Shown in pieces: positions 5,457 to 14,779 of a stretch of 50,005 nucleotides of DNA. The stretch comes from Promethearchaeota archaeon (GTDB lineage: Archaea > Asgardarchaeota > Lokiarchaeia > Sigyniarchaeales > SOKP01), in assembly GCA_011364925.1 (NCBI GenBank), contig RDOA01000023.1, positions 1-50,005 on the forward strand, written 5' to 3'. Within the stretch, counting starts at the first letter, position 1, and the number at the start of each line of letters is the position of its first letter. The position numbers and the translations under genes are program-made. The notes below the pieces were generated by a model that was not told the DNA's origin, made no database searches, and saw nothing but the letters and a program-made list of their open reading frames with translations.

Positions 5457-7163
5457 TTAATCTCGCATTTCTTTTGGGAGAGTTAAGACTCCCGTTAAGG
5501 GATTATTAATAGGATCTTTACAATATTCAATGGTAAAGTAAATTAAATCGTAAAGTATGTTGGGATTTTCGTTATTATCCAATTTGTATTGATATAAGCT
5601 TAATTGATACTCCGCCTCGGTTATGGGGGGTTCTGCGTAACTTACGCTACCAAACACAGATTGAAGGAGTGGTTTCAAGAAAGGTGAATAGAGAAATCCA
5701 AGTTCTTTCAAGACATCCTTCAAATAAAAGAACATTCTTTGACATGCTTGCATCATATATCTTACTGGTTGATTAGGAGGTCCTAAATATTGGTCGGCAA
5801 AGTCAGGATCATATTGTATAAGGTGTTCTCGCGTAAGATTTTGAGGTCGAAACAACGAAATTAAACCTCGTTCAATAGAGGTTTTTCGATTATAAGCAAT
5901 GGTTTCACTTCCGGCATCAGGTACCCATACTCCTCTTTGCAGTAATTGTCGAGTTTTATAGCACATTGCTTGCAGTAAAAGTGCGATTCCTATTCGACGA
6001 CATATTGAGATCTGAGCGTCTGAAACTCGAATTTCTATCGTTCCCCAATCTGTGTAAGGAAAGACATCTTGGAAGCGTCCATCTTCCAGACTGGCCTTCT
6101 GGATTACTTGAAGGAAATAAGTCATCGTCGCTTCATCGTTAGAGGTGATGTAGGGGATGAAATGCTTCGGGTCGTTGTTACTGAGCATCGTAGTATTATT
6201 TTTTAACCTTAGAGAACGAACGCAGTTAGGGGCTGTAATTCTTTTATTCACAATTTTTACGACATCTGTGGGCTTGTTATTTAATATTGGCGAATTACAA
6301 GTCAAAGCGATAATATGCGGAATGAAGTTTCTTATCATACAGTAAGCCTGGATTTTCTCTAAATCATTATAAAAGGAACCGATGTGAGAGTGATCAGCTT
6401 GAGTTAGACCGCGCATATACTCTTTAGCAGCTGGATTTATAGCAGAAGCGATTATGTGTAAATCGTTAGGTAAAGTAGTTTTTGCGAGTAGAAACAATGT
6501 GCTTGCCCAATAAGCCAATTCCTCAGCATATTCACAAGGTGGGGTTACAAGCTCAAGGATATAAGTTACTGCTGTAACATTGCCATCTCGAGCAAATGTG
6601 TCTATGTCCACTTCTCCTCCATCTGGTAAGCGATACCGAATATCCATGGCGTATCCTTTTTCTATATCGTCTCGACCATAAGGTCGCGCAGTAACTTTTT
6701 CTCGAATATAATCAGGCACGGGTAGAAAGTCTTGTCTACCTTCATATAGGACTTGATCCATTATTCTGATAGCGTCTTTTACGATTTCTTTCATTCGAAA
6801 CACCATTTCGTCGCCAGGAGGATAATTTCCATTATCATCAGCTATAATTAGTTCCATTTCGATTCCATGTGTGAACGGTAAAATAGTCCAATGCTCTACA
6901 TCAACTAAAATTTCGGCCCACGATCTATCTGGAATTAGTATTTCTCTATAATCAGAACCAAGAAATAATTTATCGGTAGATCTATCAATCGAGGCACCTA
7001 AGTGTATACCCGATGGGAGTCCACTTACTTTCTTTTCTTTTGGTGCCTTGCCTTTTTCCTTACCTTTTTCTTTACTCATAAATGGAGCGAAGGTATCATA
7101 ATCATCATTACTAGATCCTTTCTTCTTCTTCTTTTTCTTGTCTTTTGCCATGGAAATTTTCAC
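5457..7163 (-). CDS. GCS2-family carboxylate-amine ligase (glutamate-cysteine ligase-like)
   Basis: This protein has 568 residues from a GTG start; an in-frame ATG at 7151 (MAKDKKKKKKKG) is the more conventional start. Residues 1-45 are an unusual lysine-rich tail. The enzyme core begins with FTHGIEMELIIAD (97-109), the Glu-containing ATP/metal strand of the GCS2 fold. It continues with HIIASAINPAAKEYMRGLTQ and HSHIGSFYND, typical of the family, and the later strand GTIEIRVSDAQ. The family uses ATP to couple an amino acid's carboxylate to an amine, as in gamma-glutamylcysteine synthesis. It lies between an Ig-like/helical-repeat protein (15 bases upstream) and an amidohydrolase (22 bases downstream), so it may make an unusual amide conjugate. 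Family assignment is good, substrate unknown. Confidence 0.75.
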   Translation of the reverse strand: MKISMAKDKKKKKKKGSSNDDYDTFAPFMSKEKGKEKGKAPKEKKVSGLPSGIHLGASIDRSTDKLFLGSDYREILIPDRSWAEILVDVEHWTILPFTHGIEMELIIADDNGNYPPGDEMVFRMKEIVKDAIRIMDQVLYEGRQDFLPVPDYIREKVTARPYGRDDIEKGYAMDIRYRLPDGGEVDIDTFARDGNVTAVTYILELVTPPCEYAEELAYWASTLFLLAKTTLPNDLHIIASAINPAAKEYMRGLTQADHSHIGSFYNDLEKIQAYCMIRNFIPHIIALTCNSPILNNKPTDVVKIVNKRITAPNCVRSLRLKNNTTMLSNNDPKHFIPYITSNDEATMTYFLQVIQKASLEDGRFQDVFPYTDWGTIEIRVSDAQISICRRIGIALLLQAMCYKTRQLLQRGVWVPDAGSETIAYNRKTSIERGLISLFRPQNLTREHLIQYDPDFADQYLGPPNQPVRYMMQACQRMFFYLKDVLKELGFLYSPFLKPLLQSVFGSVSYAEPPITEAEYQLSLYQYKLDNNENPNILYDLIYFTIEYCKDPINNPLTGVLTLPKEMRD

Positions 7164-7178
7164 AACATGATTTTAAAT

Positions 7179-9038
7179 TCACATTATTGATTGGATAAAA
7201 GTTTTGAATATTTCGTAATCGTTAATAAATTCGTAGGAGAGAACCATATTAACGATGTTGAAATTATTACCATAAAATATACTACTTAAGTTCTCAACCG
7301 ACTTTCCGCCTTTAAATAAGTCGTTATCTACCATCACATCGACTCGGTCTCCAAAGGTTTTTACGATTCTCGATTGAATTCCGCTTACATCTTCGGTTAT
7401 GGAGGAAAGGATAACGGATGGTTTTCCTAAATAAGGAATAAAGTCTAAATTGTAAATTGTCACTCGATTTCTAATGCTTTCGGGCTTGAAAAATCGTTTG
7501 AGGGTCGCTTGAATGATTTTTAATTCGTCTTGATTGTGTTCACTTATTGAAGGAAAAATATAATACGCGAAAGATTTTTTTGAATTATAGCTTAATTCTG
7601 AATAAACTCTATCGATAATAGGAAAGATACTAAAATTAAAACTAAATAAGGATATAAGTGCGATATTATAATTATAATTACCCATTAGGATGTTGTTACT
7701 TGCATTACCTCCTATTAAGGAGAATTCTTTTACTTCATTAGTGATTTGTGACGTGTACATATTTAGTAGATAAAACTGAGAGAATTCTCCAATAGGTTCT
7801 ACCTTAGTTTTCTTTTCTTCAACCATCTTATAAATTTCATTGTATAAATCCTTTGCAACCTTATTTTTAAGTTCTTCTAAACTTAATCCTTGAATAAGTT
7901 TATCTGCTGCCGCGGGACTATCTAATTCTGCTAGAATACACACAGCATCTTTGAAATATTCGTAATTAGGATTCTTAAAGTTTTGATCAGATAAATCAAT
8001 TCTATTGGAACTGAGACTAGTTTGAATAATTTGGTTTATGATACTCAGGATCGGTTGGGATTGATTGTTACTATGTAGGTTTTTGGCTAAATTATATAAC
8101 ACTTTAATCTTAACAATATCATCTTTAATAAGTTCTGCAAACTTCAACGCAAGGCTAGCGTTTTTTTCAAGAGAAACAGAAATAACTTCTAACACTGCAT
8201 TTTGCTTGATAGGATCATCTTCAATAAGAGATAGTATCTTGTTGACTTGTTCTGGATCGATTTTTACATAATCAACTGCAATATTATTAATAATGAGGTT
8301 TTTTTTATTAATATCGTTTAGATCTCTTATGGCTTGTAATGTACTTTCAAGATTAAGAGTTGCGTTGGCTCTAATGAGGTTATAATATAATTCTGTTTTT
8401 TCTTTTTCATTAGTCAACTTTAACGAGTTTTCTAACGCTTTGTAGAATTCGCCAATTGAGAGATAAGACTTTGCCAGTATTTTCGTCTTTTCCTCAATCT
8501 CTCTCTTTGATTTATTAGCTGATTTGTTGTTGTTTTGTGCCTCGTTAGTACTAGTTGAGATTTCAGTAATCTGTTTTTCAATCTTTTTAACTTCGCTCTT
8601 ACTAGAGGTAATGACGAAGTTTTTTACGTCAAACCCATCATCTTTTATGGATGGGAGAAACTGTTTCTTTTTCAGTATTTGGTTAATTTTACTTAGTGGA
8701 ATTTTCTCTCTAATCTTTTGAACATTAACTATATATTCGACTATTCTCATCCAGTAAGCATTTACCGTCAACTTACCGAATCCGCTATTGGTAGGATTTA
8801 AATTTAGCTTAATCGCTTTAGTTTCTCCTGGTTTAAAAAGAACTTCTTCTAAAAATTCAACGGGTTTAACATCAATCTCGAGATTTTCACCTTCGAACAC
8901 AAATTTAAAGTGTTCTTCCTTAGTGGACTGATTACTTACTTGAAAGGAAACAGAGTTGTCAATACCCGGAATTAGGAGGTTTTGGGGAAATTGCGTTACA
9001 TTAATCGATATCACATGGTTCGGATCTGCGGTTGGCAT
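7179..9038 (-). CDS. Large protein with N-terminal Ig-like domain and helical-repeat middle
   Basis: I do not recognise this 619-residue protein. Residues 1-105 look like an Ig-like beta sandwich: alternating strands, and the phrase FKPGETKAIKLNLNPTNSG, typical of CARDB/adaptin-ear-like folds. Residues 150-185 are a low-complexity Ser/Asn/Lys linker. Residues 185-400 are helix-turn-helix repeats of TPR or other alpha-solenoid type (AKSYLSIGEFYKALENSLKL and similar units). Residues 400-619 form a mixed alpha/beta C-terminal domain ending in EIFKTFIQSIM. No signal peptide is present, so it is cytoplasmic. It leads a tight run with the ligase (15-base gap) and amidohydrolase and may be a scaffold or substrate adaptor for them. 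Beta-sandwich plus solenoid is reminiscent of vesicle-coat adaptors, but that is only an architectural analogy. Confidence 0.6.
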   Translation of the reverse strand: MPTADPNHVISINVTQFPQNLLIPGIDNSVSFQVSNQSTKEEHFKFVFEGENLEIDVKPVEFLEEVLFKPGETKAIKLNLNPTNSGFGKLTVNAYWMRIVEYIVNVQKIREKIPLSKINQILKKKQFLPSIKDDGFDVKNFVITSSKSEVKKIEKQITEISTSTNEAQNNNKSANKSKREIEEKTKILAKSYLSIGEFYKALENSLKLTNEKEKTELYYNLIRANATLNLESTLQAIRDLNDINKKNLIINNIAVDYVKIDPEQVNKILSLIEDDPIKQNAVLEVISVSLEKNASLALKFAELIKDDIVKIKVLYNLAKNLHSNNQSQPILSIINQIIQTSLSSNRIDLSDQNFKNPNYEYFKDAVCILAELDSPAAADKLIQGLSLEELKNKVAKDLYNEIYKMVEEKKTKVEPIGEFSQFYLLNMYTSQITNEVKEFSLIGGNASNNILMGNYNYNIALISLFSFNFSIFPIIDRVYSELSYNSKKSFAYYIFPSISEHNQDELKIIQATLKRFFKPESIRNRVTIYNLDFIPYLGKPSVILSSITEDVSGIQSRIVKTFGDRVDVMVDNDLFKGGKSVENLSSIFYGNNFNIVNMVLSYEFINDYEIFKTFIQSIM

Positions 9039-9195
9039 GATTGAAAAGATATTTGGTTTTAGTAGTATATTTAATTGCGCAAAAAAGATATTATTTATGA
9101 TTTATAAGAAGGTAAAAAATGTGAACGACTGCTAAATTACCTTAATATCATCAATATAAAAGTTATTGATTTTAAATATTTACTAATAAAAAAGG

Positions 9196-9951
9196 TCACT
9201 TCCCCTTTCTTCTATTTCTTTTTACATAATCGAGCAAATCTTCAATTACCATCTCCCTACTGTAATCCGGCCATAAATCTGATCGAAATTTAAATTCGGC
9301 GTATGATGCGTCCCACAATAAGAATCCCGATATTCTTGCGCCATCTTCCATTCCTGTTCTTATGATAAAGTCGACTTCAGGAAAGTTTCGAGTGTAAAGG
9401 TGATTTTTTATTATTGTTCGATCTATATCTTCCTCTTTCACTCCACTTTTAATGATTTCTTTCACAGCATCGACGATTTCTTCCTGTCCATCATACATTA
9501 TACATAAATTAATGAAATTTTTATCGTTATCTTTTGTAAATTCGATCAGTTCGTTCACTTTATCTCTTACTACTTTTGGTAACAAATAAACCCTTCCTAT
9601 TACGTTAAAATTAACTTTTTCTTCTTTAACAGTCGCTTCTTTTACTACGGCATCAACTGCGTCTAAAATAATTCCAAAAATATATTTAATCTCCTCTTCA
9701 CTTCTCTTTTTTAAATTCTCGAGCGATAAGGCGTAAATACTTAGATAATGGATACCAGCTTCAAAAAAATCAAACAATCTCTCTTTTAAGTTCCGGTATC
9801 CAATTAGATGGCCTACATTCGCACCAAGCAGATTTTTGCTTGCCCAACGACGGTTAACGGTTAAAAGTGGTGATCACTAATAAATTCCGTCCAAAATTAA
9901 TCCAACATGTTTAGGCAATTTATTCTCTGCTATATCGTTTAATTCATCCAA
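9196..9951 (-). CDS. uppS: cis-Prenyltransferase (UPP synthase/DHDDS family) interrupted by a 30-nt BHB-type intron
   Basis: This enzyme condenses isopentenyl diphosphate onto an allylic diphosphate to make the polyprenyl carrier for glycosylation. The contiguous ORF (9196-9777, TTG) lacks the catalytic N-terminus. That is found upstream in another exon: exon 1 (9951-9885) encodes LPKHVGLILDG and exon 2 (9854-9196) resumes with RRWASKNLLGANVGH. Joining 9885 to 9854 gives D21-G-N-R-R-W, the hallmark motif with catalytic Asp21, and a 241-residue protein of normal family length. Later motifs also fit: SIYALSLENLKKR, IIRTGMEDGARISGFLLW and LWPDYS. The TTG at 9951 is my preferred start; a TATA-like TTTATAAT at about 10017-10010 would place transcription near 9986. 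Reading straight through the insert meets UAG. The alternative, a recent 30-base insertion pseudogene, is less likely given the perfect fold and splice. Confidence 0.85.
9855..9884 (-). other. Putative 30-nt archaeal mRNA intron (bulge-helix-bulge)
   Basis: On the transcribed strand, exon 1 ends GGACGGAA and exon 2 starts ACCGUCG. The 4-bp central helix pairs exon ACGG with intron CCGU. Each side then has a 3-nt bulge (AAU at the 5' site, UAA at the 3' site). The inner stem pairs UUA with UAA, passes two U-U mismatches, then closes AGUG with CACU around the loop AUCAC. Cutting after the second base of each bulge releases exactly 30 nt and restores GAC GGA AAC CGU CGU UGG. The outer helix is weak (GG:CC plus a U-G pair), a relaxed BHB. 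Substrate of the tRNA splicing endonuclease by inference. Confidence 0.8.
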
Positions 9952-10076
9952 ACTGATGTGGCTCTTTTCGAGATTTATGTAAATATTGCAGTTATTTCGA
10001 TTCTTATGATTATAAATGTCGTTAATAGCATATTAGAATTTTGATTTCTACCTCCTTTAGTTGGATTATTGAGACC

Positions 10077-10114
10077 AATCTGAAAAAATCAAACCATGAA
10101 TAAAAATTCAGATT
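10077..10114. repeat. Inverted repeat AATCTGAA / TTCAGATT in the divergent promoter region
   Basis: Two perfect 8-base arms (10077-10084 and 10107-10114) are separated by 22 bases, in the middle of the divergent intergenic region. They could be half-sites of a dimeric regulator controlling the isoprenoid genes, or a leader hairpin. In such AT-rich DNA an 8-bp match can also be chance. Confidence 0.35.
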
Positions 10115-10270
10115 TTTACTTATGGGTAAATGTATTCACACCTTTAATAGTATTAAACATCAACAACTTATGATAGTAGTAATCCAATAGGAATTTTTAA
10201 ATAACCACATACCCTAGTATGTTTAATATTTAATTAGATAACTTTTTGAGTAAAGAAGAATTTACTTATC

Positions 10271-10280
10271 AAATATAAAA
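10271..10280 (+). promoter_or_regulatory. TATA-like element for the mevalonate operon
   Basis: AAATATAAAA lies 71 bases before the HMG-CoA synthase start codon. With the usual archaeal spacing of about 25 bases, transcription would begin near 10300 and leave a leader of about 50 bases. Assigned by eye only. Confidence 0.4.
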
Positions 10281-10351
10281 ACAAGTAATAAAATCTTATC
10301 TACATTGATTTAAGATAATCATTTTGAACAAAACTTCAAAGAGAATAGCGT

Positions 10352-11980
10352 ATGATTGGTAACGAGTATTTGTTTGGTGACATAGGCATTGATAGTGTAG
10401 GATTCCACGCACCAAAGTATTACATTAAGTTGGATGACTTAGCACAAAAGCGAGAGGTCGATCCAGGGAAATTTAGTAAAGGTTTAATGGTCCATGAAAT
10501 GAGAGTCCCAGAAGTTAATGAAGACATCATCTCTCTTGGTTTGAAAGCAGGATATCAAGCTTTAATAAAAGGAGGAATCTCTCCTAAAAGTATCGACGCG
10601 TTATTTGTAGGAACTGAGACTATTACGTACGCTGTAAAGTCTGTATCGAACATTTTCGCCGAGCTTTTGGAGATTTCGCCGAATGCCTTGACAATGGATT
10701 CGTACAATGCGTGTGCTGGAGGTACGCTCGCACTTTTGAACGCCATCGCGTTGATTGAAAAAGAAATTATAAAAAATGCTCTTGTGATTAGTGCCGACAT
10801 ATCGTCCTATCACTTGGGCAGCCCGAGCGAGGCAACCCAAGGTTCGGGAGCGGTAGCTTTGGTTGTTTCAAAAAATCCCAGAATAGCAACATTTAGTGAT
10901 AAATTTGGAAAAATCTCAGGAAATGTTGACGATTTTTTCCGAGCAGCGAATGAAAAACACGCTAAAGCGTTTGGACATTATTCGGTAAAGACATATCTAG
11001 ATTTTCAATTAAAGGCATATGATGATTTAATTAATCAAATTGGAGATTTCCAAGCTGATTATTATACGTTCCATGCACCATTCGCTAAGTTGCCAATTAA
11101 GTGTATGCAAGAGATTATCCAAAAACGCTGGATAAAACATATTAACGAGCTCCCAAAGTTAGAGAAAAATCACATCAGATCTTCAATACTTAAGAAACTT
11201 AATGCTTTCATGCACGATGTGACCGTCTTACCTGAATGGTTATATTTAAAATTAAAGGAGAGAGGCTATTCCTCTGAAGCTCTCGAAGATGTTTCGCATA
11301 AACTCATTGGAAATTTTATAGGAAAAGTGCTTCCCCAATTACGAGTTCCATCCCATTTTGGAAATATGTATAACGCTTCAATTTGGGCTCAGATTATTTA
11401 TATCCTTGAGAATTATGGTCGACCAGACGATACTATTTATTTTGGTTCCTATGGCTCAGGAGCAACATGTATATCAGGATTATTAAAGATAAAGGATACT
11501 TTCAAAAAGGTTGTAGATAAAGGCCCTCAAATTAACGATTTTATCAAGGATAAAGAACTCAAAACGATTCAAGAGTACGAGCAAATTAAGAAAGGCGATT
11601 TCTCGCAAAAGTCATATTTAGGTCAAATTGTTGAGCATGAAAAGAACAATAAGAGGGGGTTTACGCTTCACTTCTGTGACGAAGGGTGTATTCTTCCTAA
11701 CATTAAGGGATTAAATCACTGTCCAAAGGGACATTCTGGGTTCCACGAAAAATTCTTTCCTCTCTATGCAGTATTAAAATCAGAACCTATAGAAAATCCA
11801 AACGAAGATAACCTTAATTATCTTTACAATGGTCTAGTAAGAATTGCGAAAAATGTAAAACCGGGTTCCTGCTTAGAATACGAGATTAGGCGCTTAGTGA
11901 ATAGAAGAGAAACAAACTTTAATGCGATTGGATTATTAAATTGGAGCCCAATGTACTATCCCGTTGAAAATATTTATTAA
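10352..11980 (+). CDS. HMG-CoA synthase, enlarged form with Cys/His-rich C-terminal extension
   Basis: The enzyme joins acetyl-CoA and acetoacetyl-CoA to HMG-CoA, the committed entry to the mevalonate pathway. Catalytic residues are visible: Glu89 in VGTETITYAVKS, Cys121 in YNACAGGT and His241 in TFHAPFAKLP, with GSYGSGATCISGLLKI near the end of the thiolase fold. At 542 residues it is far longer than usual archaeal enzymes (about 350). It has a helical insert at about 255-335 and a C-terminal extension from about 425 carrying CDEGC, HCPKGHSGFH and further strands, possibly a zinc-binding module. Other archaea use a separate DUF35 zinc-ribbon/OB protein next to thiolase and HMG-CoA synthase, and none is present here. 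First gene of the plus-strand isoprenoid cluster; 119 bases follow before the reductase. Confidence 0.9.
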   Translation: MIGNEYLFGDIGIDSVGFHAPKYYIKLDDLAQKREVDPGKFSKGLMVHEMRVPEVNEDIISLGLKAGYQALIKGGISPKSIDALFVGTETITYAVKSVSNIFAELLEISPNALTMDSYNACAGGTLALLNAIALIEKEIIKNALVISADISSYHLGSPSEATQGSGAVALVVSKNPRIATFSDKFGKISGNVDDFFRAANEKHAKAFGHYSVKTYLDFQLKAYDDLINQIGDFQADYYTFHAPFAKLPIKCMQEIIQKRWIKHINELPKLEKNHIRSSILKKLNAFMHDVTVLPEWLYLKLKERGYSSEALEDVSHKLIGNFIGKVLPQLRVPSHFGNMYNASIWAQIIYILENYGRPDDTIYFGSYGSGATCISGLLKIKDTFKKVVDKGPQINDFIKDKELKTIQEYEQIKKGDFSQKSYLGQIVEHEKNNKRGFTLHFCDEGCILPNIKGLNHCPKGHSGFHEKFFPLYAVLKSEPIENPNEDNLNYLYNGLVRIAKNVKPGSCLEYEIRRLVNRRETNFNAIGLLNWSPMYYPVENIY

Positions 11981-12099
11981 ATCTTTAGTTTACACAATAT
12001 AAATTCTCTTTTTACGCTTTTGACTAATTAATTGTAGAACTAATAATTGTTATAAGATGCTACAAATTGAATTAAACTATAAAAGATGCGAGTACTAAG

Positions 12100-13380
12100 A
12101 TGAGTAAATTTTATTCGAATATTTCAGGATTTTATAAATTATCTCTAGAAGAAAGGCAACAACAACTAGCAGAGTTATCAAAGCTAAACATAGAAGAGAC
12201 AAAACTGTTAGAAAACCTAGGGTATTTATCACGTGATCAAATTGATACTTTTATAGAGAATGTTGTAGGAAGCTATCAATTACCGATGGGTGTTGCTCTT
12301 AATTTTAAAGTAAATGGAAAAGACTACATAATTCCTATGGTTATCGAAGAGCCCTCAGTTGTAGCAGCTGCTTCAAACATGGCTAAAGTTGCTAGAAAAT
12401 TAGGCGGATTTCAGTCAGAAGAAGTCAAATCCATTATGATTTCCCAGATTCAGTTAACCAATATTCGCGATATCAACGACGCGAAAGAGAAGTTACAAAG
12501 AAATAAGGACAAAATCCTAGAATTAGCTAACGAGCAAGATCCATACTTAAATAAATTGGGCGGTGGTGCTATTGACTTGGAAATAAGAGAACTCGATACA
12601 AGGAAAGGAAAAATGGTAATCGTTCACCTTTTCGTTGATGTATTAGATGCGATGGGAGCAAACATAGTTAACACGATGGCTGAGGCCATAAGCTCTTACA
12701 TAGAAACTCTGTGTGGGGCAAAGATTTATTTACGCATTGTTTCCAACTTAGCGACCCAAAGACTTGCTAAATGTAAGGCGGTGTTTGATAAAGAATTATT
12801 AGGCGGCGAAGAAATAGTGGAGGGCATTCTAAACGCTTACGAATTTGCACTTGCCGATCCTTATAGAGCAACAACTCATAACAAAGGAATAATGAATGGA
12901 ATTGTTGCCCTTGCATTGGCAACGGGAAATGATACTCGTGCTCTCGAGGCTGGAGCTCACTCATATGCATCCTTAGAGGGTCGATATAAACCATTAACAA
13001 AGTTTGAATTGGATTCTGAAGGAAATTTAGTAGGGGAAATTGAATTACCTCTCGCTTTTGGTATTATAGGAGGGATCACACAATCTCATCCGATGGCGCG
13101 TTTAGCTTTAAAAATCCTTAATGTGGAAAGTGCTAGCGAGCTCTCGCAAATAGCGGCAGCAGTTGGACTCGCTCAAAATGTGGGTGCTTTAAGAGCTTTA
13201 GCTGCGGAGGGCATCCAGAAAGGACACATGACGCTACATTCCCGCAATATTGCAAAATTAGCTGGTGTTCCGGATAATTTAGTAGAAGAAGTAGCGCGAA
13301 AAATAGTAGAAGATCATAAAATAAGAGTAGATTACGCTAAAGAAGTGTTAAAGAAAATAATTAAGAACAAAAAGGTTTAG
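12100..13380 (+). CDS. HMG-CoA reductase, class II type
   Basis: This enzyme reduces HMG-CoA to mevalonate. The 426-residue sequence has class II hallmarks, like the Pseudomonas mevalonii enzyme: an N-terminus rich in ISGFYKLSLEERQQQLAELS, EEPSVVAAASNMAK with the catalytic Glu near 83, DAMGANIVNTMAEA, HNKGIMNGI with the active-site Lys, and GIQKGHMTLHSRNIA with the catalytic His. There is no membrane anchor. Most archaea carry class I; class II is known from bacteria and some archaeal groups such as Archaeoglobales and Thermoplasmatales, so this copy probably has a bacterial-type origin somewhere in its history (inference). The flanking genes are standard archaeal mevalonate genes. Cofactor preference (NADH or NADPH) cannot be read from sequence here. 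Confidence 0.93.
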   Translation: MSKFYSNISGFYKLSLEERQQQLAELSKLNIEETKLLENLGYLSRDQIDTFIENVVGSYQLPMGVALNFKVNGKDYIIPMVIEEPSVVAAASNMAKVARKLGGFQSEEVKSIMISQIQLTNIRDINDAKEKLQRNKDKILELANEQDPYLNKLGGGAIDLEIRELDTRKGKMVIVHLFVDVLDAMGANIVNTMAEAISSYIETLCGAKIYLRIVSNLATQRLAKCKAVFDKELLGGEEIVEGILNAYEFALADPYRATTHNKGIMNGIVALALATGNDTRALEAGAHSYASLEGRYKPLTKFELDSEGNLVGEIELPLAFGIIGGITQSHPMARLALKILNVESASELSQIAAAVGLAQNVGALRALAAEGIQKGHMTLHSRNIAKLAGVPDNLVEEVARKIVEDHKIRVDYAKEVLKKIIKNKKV

Positions 13381-13462
13381 TTTTATAAAAAGTGCTTCAC
13401 AAATGTTTTTAATGAAATTTAATAAAAATGTAAATTCATGGCATAGAAATTAATAATTCGAG

Positions 13463-14779
13463 ATGGGTTTTATGGGATTTAGAGAATATTTAGATGATAT
13501 TGACAATAAAGGATTGTTAAAAAAAGTTGATATTGAAGTTTCGAAGAAACTAGAAATTGCAGGGATTCTTAAGCAGATGGAGCCGACTCCCATAATTTTT
13601 AACAATGCGAAAGAATCTGAATTCCGAGTTGCTGGAAATCTGTTTTGTACGAAAAATGTAATTGCTTCATATTTTAAAGTAGATCCAAATGATCTTATTC
13701 CAATGCTTTCAAATGCAATTTTAAATAGCTCTGAGCCGGAAATTATTAAGAACGCCCCTTGTCAAGAGATAATTGAGCAAAATGTAGATTTAGATAAATT
13801 ACCAATACTATTTCATTGTGAAAAAGACGGTGGGAATTACATTAGTTCTGCCGTAGTTGTTACGAGAGATCCTGATTATGGACAGAATTTGGATTTTCAT
13901 CGAGCTATGCAATTTTCTAAAAGTAAATTTTCTACCCGAATCGTGCGGGGTCGCAATTTTCATACATTTTTAGAGAAAAATGATGAGTTAGATGTTGCTT
14001 TTTGTGTAGGAAACACCCCAAACATAATGATTGCAGCAGCAACTTCAGTTGAGATAGGATTTGATGAATTAATGATTGCGAATGCGTTAGAACCAATAAA
14101 AGTTGTAAAAGCAAATTCTGTTGATTTAATGGTTCCTGCTGAAGCTGAATTTATTTTAGAAGGGCGAGTGTTTAAAGACGAGAAGCACGCCGAAGGGCCT
14201 TTTGTAGACTTAACAGAAACCTACGACACGATACGAGAAGAACCGGTATTTGAAGTCAAGAAAATAACTCATCGAAAGAACGCGATATGGCAAGCATTGT
14301 TACCAGGAGCTTTAGAGCATAAAATACTAATGGGAATGCCGCGAGAACCCACTATTTTCAATAAGGTGAACGAAACGGGTGTTAAATGCTTAGATGTTAA
14401 CGTCAATCCAGGAGGCTGCTCTTGGTTACATGCGATAGTGCAAATTGATAAAAAAACTGAAGAAGATGGGAAAAAAGCTATATATGGAGCGTTTGCAGGG
14501 CACAGCAGTTGCAAGCATATTTTTATCGTAGATAAGGACATCAATATCTACGATCCATTATCTGTCGAATGGGCCATGGCAACTCGATTTCAAGGTGATA
14601 CTCGAATGGTTGTAAAAGAAAAAGAACCGGGAAGTAGCCTGGATCCAAGCGCAGAACCAGGCACAAAAATGACAACTAAGATTGGATTTGATTTAACAAA
14701 ACCTTTAGTTGCGAAAGGTAAAAGTTTTGAAATTGCAGAATTCCCTAAAGTAGATATTAAAAAGTATTTCAATGAATAA
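13463..14779 (+). CDS. UbiD-family trans-anhydromevalonate 5-phosphate decarboxylase
   Basis: A 438-residue UbiD-type decarboxylase, recognised by YISSAVVVTRDPDYGQNL, RIVRGRNFHTFLE, AEGPFVDLTETYD, ALLPGALEHKILMGMPRE and the C-terminal DPSAEPG segment. UbiD enzymes use prenylated FMN made by UbiX, and a UbiX gene lies in the same cluster. Placed directly before the phosphomevalonate dehydratase subunits (12-base gap), it fits the step converting trans-anhydromevalonate 5-phosphate to isopentenyl phosphate in the modified archaeal mevalonate pathway, rather than ubiquinone or aromatic-acid metabolism. The Glu/Arg/Glu catalytic triad is plausible from the Glu-rich motifs but was not aligned. ATG start; a second in-frame ATG follows three codons later. 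Confidence 0.85.
   Translation: MGFMGFREYLDDIDNKGLLKKVDIEVSKKLEIAGILKQMEPTPIIFNNAKESEFRVAGNLFCTKNVIASYFKVDPNDLIPMLSNAILNSSEPEIIKNAPCQEIIEQNVDLDKLPILFHCEKDGGNYISSAVVVTRDPDYGQNLDFHRAMQFSKSKFSTRIVRGRNFHTFLEKNDELDVAFCVGNTPNIMIAAATSVEIGFDELMIANALEPIKVVKANSVDLMVPAEAEFILEGRVFKDEKHAEGPFVDLTETYDTIREEPVFEVKKITHRKNAIWQALLPGALEHKILMGMPREPTIFNKVNETGVKCLDVNVNPGGCSWLHAIVQIDKKTEEDGKKAIYGAFAGHSSCKHIFIVDKDINIYDPLSVEWAMATRFQGDTRMVVKEKEPGSSLDPSAEPGTKMTTKIGFDLTKPLVAKGKSFEIAEFPKVDIKKYFNE

Follow-up and report, generated by a model that had tools for sequence, protein, structure and literature searches.

The closest described system is the intron in the pre-mRNA of cbf5, the gene for an RNA pseudouridine synthase, in the crenarchaeal orders Desulfurococcales and Sulfolobales (PMC2738675). 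The cbf5 introns are 16–44 nt long, interrupt a catalytic codon and mostly adopt an unconventional (relaxed) form of the bulge-helix-bulge (BHB) motif (PMC2738675). A report from 2020 (PMC7714728) listed cbf5 of Crenarchaeota as the one earlier BHB intron in archaeal mRNA and added a new case, HVO_1309 of Haloferax volcanii, in which the intron sits in the 5′ UTR. Putative introns of 12 bp in an archaeal virus are mentioned in PMC2738675, where Peng et al. are cited for them.

Here, a 30-nt insert in a cis-prenyltransferase (CPT) gene from Lokiarchaeia was analysed. The CPT product makes a lipid carrier for sugars, and Lokiarchaea are relatives of eukaryotes. The window, that is, the whole stretch of DNA that was analysed, comprises 50,005 nt of contig RDOA01000023.1 (assembly GCA_011364925.1). 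A first-pass annotation of this DNA had proposed a 30-nt BHB intron inside the DGNRRW motif of CPT. This proposal is now supported by ten insert-bearing sequences, by the presence of the splicing machinery and by the testing of rival explanations, and the full explanation developed below, with cutting by the endonuclease EndA, joining by RtcB and a single gain of the intron, is very probably correct.

Results

The CPT gene lies on the minus strand of the window (9951–9196), with a TTG start codon at 9951 and a stop codon that ends at 9196. Exon 1 (9885–9951, minus strand) begins with this TTG and reads MDELNDIAENKLPKHVGLILDG plus the first base of an Asn codon; its start position (TTG or GTG, then GAA or GAT) is common to most relatives. 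The insert (9855–9884, minus strand; TTTATTAGTGATCACCACTTTTAACCGTTA) consists of 30 bases in the catalytic DGNRRW motif and contains two in-frame stops, and the unspliced frame reads LPKHVGLILDG-IY-stop-stop-SPLLTV-NRRWASKN. Exon 2 (9196–9854, minus strand) runs from NRRWASKN to the stop codon and matches the Pfam family PF01255 on its own, from profile position 5–6 to 219. Removal of 9884–9855 gives a 241-residue CPT that covers PF01255 positions 1–219 (E 1.3e-57) and also matches solved bacterial undecaprenyl and decaprenyl diphosphate synthases; the predicted joined protein spans the splice junction with the peptide LPKHVGLILDGNRR. In the mechanical ORF list for the window, CPT is shown only as a truncated protein of 193 aa.

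Genes for HMG-CoA synthase, HMG-CoA reductase and a UbiD-family decarboxylase adjoin CPT divergently (10352–14779, plus strand), an isoprenoid neighbourhood. Downstream of CPT lie two large ORFs without a Pfam match (7179–9038, minus strand, 619 aa; 5457–7163, minus strand, 568 aa). An apparent ortholog of the 619-aa ORF follows CPT in at least two relatives (L041, L042).

Related genomes (58) were searched for PF01255, and genes were found in 50 of them. Ten distinct insert-bearing sequences were obtained, from eight G-numbered carrier genomes (that of the window included) and the named MAG CSMAG_2237; one genome, G007, holds two insert-bearing copies, possibly from two strains. The ten inserts are orthologous: each is 30 nt long, enters at the same base and contains a stop. 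All intronless relatives with a contig over the site read DGNRR unbroken; the truncated genes L041 and L042 stop short of the insert site and give no information. All carriers fall into one clade (support 95/92 for the protein tree; 97/97 for the nucleotide tree, built from close relatives). One gain suffices, and no loss of the intron was seen inside the carrier clade. The alignment of the gene across related Asgard genomes, which the first-pass annotation had proposed as a check, places all ten carriers in a single clade with intronless sisters that read through. Two genomes of the same genus, G014 and G011, gave no CPT match at about 92% completeness, which reflects either assembly gaps or real absence.

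The BHB of the window (all positions on the minus strand) has an outer helix of GG (9891–9892) with CC (9852–9853) and a central helix of ACGG in exon 1 (9887–9890) with CCGU in the intron (9857–9860). The 5′ bulge is AAU (9884–9886), with a predicted cut between 9885 and 9884, and the 3′ bulge is UAA (9854–9856), with a predicted cut between 9855 and 9854. In the inner hairpin (9861–9883), UUA (9883–9881) pairs with UAA (9863–9861) and AGUG (9878–9875) with CACU (9869–9866). In the window, LDGNRRWA is regained with three pairs of cuts, of which only one has a BHB; when both bulges are cut after their second base, DGNRRW reappears in all ten sequences. All removals of 30 nt that give back LDGNRRWA were compared, and in every sequence the BHB register is the one that has conserved core pairs, a long inner helix and outer pairs together. 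Six relatives also allow a rival register with 4/4 central pairs, but it has only 2 inner and 0–2 outer pairs there and does not exist in the window.

Most of the first-pass description was confirmed by these data: the intron at 9855–9884 and the junction 9885/9854, the two 3-nt bulges with an inner stem-loop, the predicted cut after the second base of each bulge, the agreement of fold and splice point, and a normal 241-residue enzyme once the insert is taken out. Two details needed correction. The frame was said to run into UAG, and a stop is indeed there, but it is the first of two consecutive stops, TAG TGA. The 4-bp central helix ACGG:CCGU is intact in the window, but the relatives keep only two or three of its four pairs.

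The central helix is thus complete only in the window; 3/4 pairs are formed in L037, L038 and L060, in which the 3′ strand reads ACGU, and 2/4 in the six others (ACGG), a shortfall in six of the ten sequences that counts against the BHB reading. In these six, the ends of the central helix would be G·A and A·G oppositions. The CG:CG core of the helix is invariant, as is the whole exon strand, and the central helix shows no covariation. The outer helix, only 2–3 bp long, is GC in all ten sequences and, being invariant, gives no covariation evidence. The inner stem has 9 bp in most relatives and is 94% paired. One clear compensatory pair (columns 29/35, GC in six sequences and AU in four) and one partial pair were found in it; the covariation score was reached by 5 of 500 shuffles, a test that is inflated by the kinship of the sequences. 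The most variable column is the first intron base, which is the unpaired third base of the 5′ bulge (four states, at least six changes).

When the insert was subjected to mononucleotide shuffling, 0.07% of the shuffles gave a 4/4 central helix with at least three inner pairs at the exact place. The general folding energy in the window is ordinary (z −0.90), and in several relatives the BHB is predicted to be less stable than a competing fold; the fold stands above chance because it is conserved in ten sequences. The structural case, good in the window, is moderate across the clade, whose pattern fits a relaxed BHB that is canonical only in the species of the window.

Two EndA paralogues and one RtcB are encoded in the source genome, and matches to EndA alpha, EndA beta and RtcB were found in every G-numbered carrier. 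EndA alpha aligns end to end with EndA of Aeropyrum pernix, including the catalytic His and Lys, and its K58-P59-R60 aligns opposite K44-P45-R46 of the Aeropyrum loop, the crenarchaeal motif. The catalytic and K-P-R motifs are present in all 23 EndA alpha subunits examined in the genus. Mutation of P45 or R46 sharply lowered EndA cleavage, and such loops have been linked to broad substrate use (PMC12397907). In the second EndA subunit no catalytic His was seen on inspection, which agrees with a structural role as beta. ARAGORN with default settings missed intron-containing tRNAs; with its intron options, introns of about 10–60 nt were called in many tRNAs of the source genome. The clearest of these, 31 nt long, interrupts tRNA-Gly(GCC) and forms 4/4 central and 9 inner pairs. 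Many tRNA genes of this genome (L094–L106) are about 100 nt or longer with introns, some apparently at unusual positions.

With these enzymes, the insert would be removed as a BHB intron from the mRNA of the sole CPT. Exon and intron bases at both ends would fold into the BHB, capped by the intron hairpin, in canonical form in the window and in relaxed form in the relatives. The two-subunit EndA is predicted to cut after the second base of each bulge, that is, after 9885 and after 9855, and RtcB would join the exons, whereby the Asn codon of D-G-N-R-R-W and an active 241-residue enzyme would be restored. A single gain of the intron, in the common ancestor of one clade within a Lokiarchaeial genus, is probable, and this clade has kept it since.

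Bypassing, pseudogene decay and readthrough were weighed against splicing, and all three fit worse. The bypass element of T4 gene 60 consists of a stop after a GGA codon, a short hairpin and a landing site downstream. In CPT, a ribosome would leave the uncut RNA at GGA and, having passed over the hairpin, resume 30 nt further on. The CPT insert resembles the T4 element in its short, conserved hairpin and in a stop shortly after GGA in all ten sequences, and five of them (L033–L036, L039) have a second GGA codon at the landing site, 30 nt away. The landing codon is, however, GTT in the window, L038 and L060, GTA in L037 and GGT in L032; unlike in T4, take-off and landing codons fail to match in four or more of the ten sequences, the window among them. 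Bypassing would moreover leave the BHB register and the type of EndA as coincidences, and we know of no archaeal precedent. It has little chance of being correct.

An equally improbable explanation is that the insert inactivated CPT and that the copies are decaying. It draws on CSMAG_2237, in which L060 is interrupted by an additional nonsense codon in its exon 1, and an intronless second CPT (L074) is found on a contig of similar coverage. The nonsense codon of L060 (TTG GAA TAA, upstream of LPKHVG) lies three codons into the exon, and this copy may be in decay or may start elsewhere. Against decay, no stop interrupts exon 2 anywhere in the ten sequences, the exons are under purifying constraint (pN/pS 0.26 in exon 1 and 0.11 in exon 2), and the insert is 30 nt long throughout the clade. 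Between species, divergence of the insert (0.21) is below that of third codon positions of exon 2 (0.36), which indicates that the insert is constrained too. A second intact CPT, which the first-pass annotation had regarded as fatal to its reading, is not among the PF01255 matches of the source genome (3.9 Mb searched), CPT being the only one, and no intronless PF01255 match was found in any of the eight G-numbered carrier genomes. Judged from the sequences, the constraint on CPT and its presence as a single copy conflict with decay, L060 being the possible exception.

Less probable still is readthrough of the stop codons, by which the enzyme would gain ten residues. It would suit the length of the insert, 30 being a multiple of three, and the single stop in the inserts of L035, L036, L038, L039 and L060. 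The stops, however, differ by species (TAA, TAG, TGA), with two in tandem in the window, so that no single recoding tRNA would serve, and the ten residues would split a DGN motif that is intact in every intronless relative. A sequencing or assembly artefact, another objection foreseen in the first-pass annotation, has a negligible probability: all carriers are MAGs, but the insert recurs with natural variation in many independent assemblies, the named carriers being Lokiarchaeia MAGs from different projects and assemblers.

Two further candidates were rejected. Internal initiation would lose the catalytic D-G, and no start codon between insert and motif is common to the ten sequences. A group I or group II intron is precluded by the length of 30 nt, which is too short, and no match to an Rfam family was found in 9100–10350 at E values up to 1.

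Other canonical BHB introns in coding sequence were sought in 1.39 Mb (about 36%) of the source genome. CPT ranked third of 53 candidates, and 21 others viewed by eye resemble antisense ORFs or ordinary gene borders. A looser scan was discarded, as it gave too many chance matches. A covariance model of the insert, run against the 58 relatives and the genus, found no copies outside the CPT gene; its sole weak extra match (E 0.03, in G023) is an intronless CPT site.

Discussion

A possible origin of the intron is indicated by a direct repeat. On either side of a 23-nt hairpin, L035 and L039 carry ACGGAAA as a perfect 7-base repeat, which leaves the exact cut in these two sequences unreadable from DNA. 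The repeat is conserved at 6/7 positions in four other carriers and at 3/7 in the window, which suggests an insertion with target duplication that later decayed. Tentatively, and with the odds rather against it, the birth of an archaeal mRNA intron can be pictured as follows: a 23-nt hairpin was inserted with a 7-bp target duplication (ACGGAAA...ACGGAAA), was tolerated at once through a broad-specificity EndA able to cut a relaxed motif, and then drifted towards a canonical BHB, completed only in the lineage of the window. This scenario is offered as a hypothesis only, because parsimony leaves the direction of the changes ambiguous: column 47, in the central helix, changed at least three times, being only ever G or T, and its root state is ambiguous. 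The carrier clade and its intronless sisters form a natural series for the study of intron origin.

If the CPT insert is spliced as proposed, the sole PF01255-family enzyme of the organism would depend on the tRNA splicing enzymes EndA and RtcB, and mRNA introns of the tRNA system would have arisen more than once, here in an unrelated single-copy enzyme gene of an Asgard archaeon. A practical warning also follows, as gene finders split genes with such introns.

In the literature searched, which was incomplete for subscription papers and preprints, no intron was reported in an archaeal CPT or in Asgard mRNA. The kind of intron is already known from cbf5; new would be the host gene, CPT, and the occurrence in Asgard mRNA. 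The best reading is that the CPT insert is about the second BHB intron in coding sequence in Archaea and, within that literature, the first in Asgard.

The archaeal tRNA introns, present in the source genome too, share the fold and size class of the CPT insert; the CPT host differs in being a protein gene, without a tRNA body as scaffold. The HVO_1309 intron, as the CPT intron would, makes an mRNA, neither tRNA nor rRNA, a substrate of EndA, but it is located in the 5′ UTR and leaves the coding sequence uninterrupted. The 12-bp inserts of the archaeal virus, as far as they are described in the citing paper, are likewise very short, in-frame and proposed as introns in archaeal protein genes; they are putative there and need not break the protein, whereas the CPT insert does. 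The closest parallel is cbf5. It differs in gene and phylum, and its splicing was proved by cDNA and in vitro cleavage, whereas we infer that of CPT from sequence. In both genes the BHB is often relaxed, the intron is restricted to a clade and the codon of a catalytic residue is broken, and the hosts of both have a two-subunit EndA; the heteromeric enzyme with a broad-specificity K-P-R loop, a trait of the cbf5 type, is found in the genus of the CPT carriers as well.
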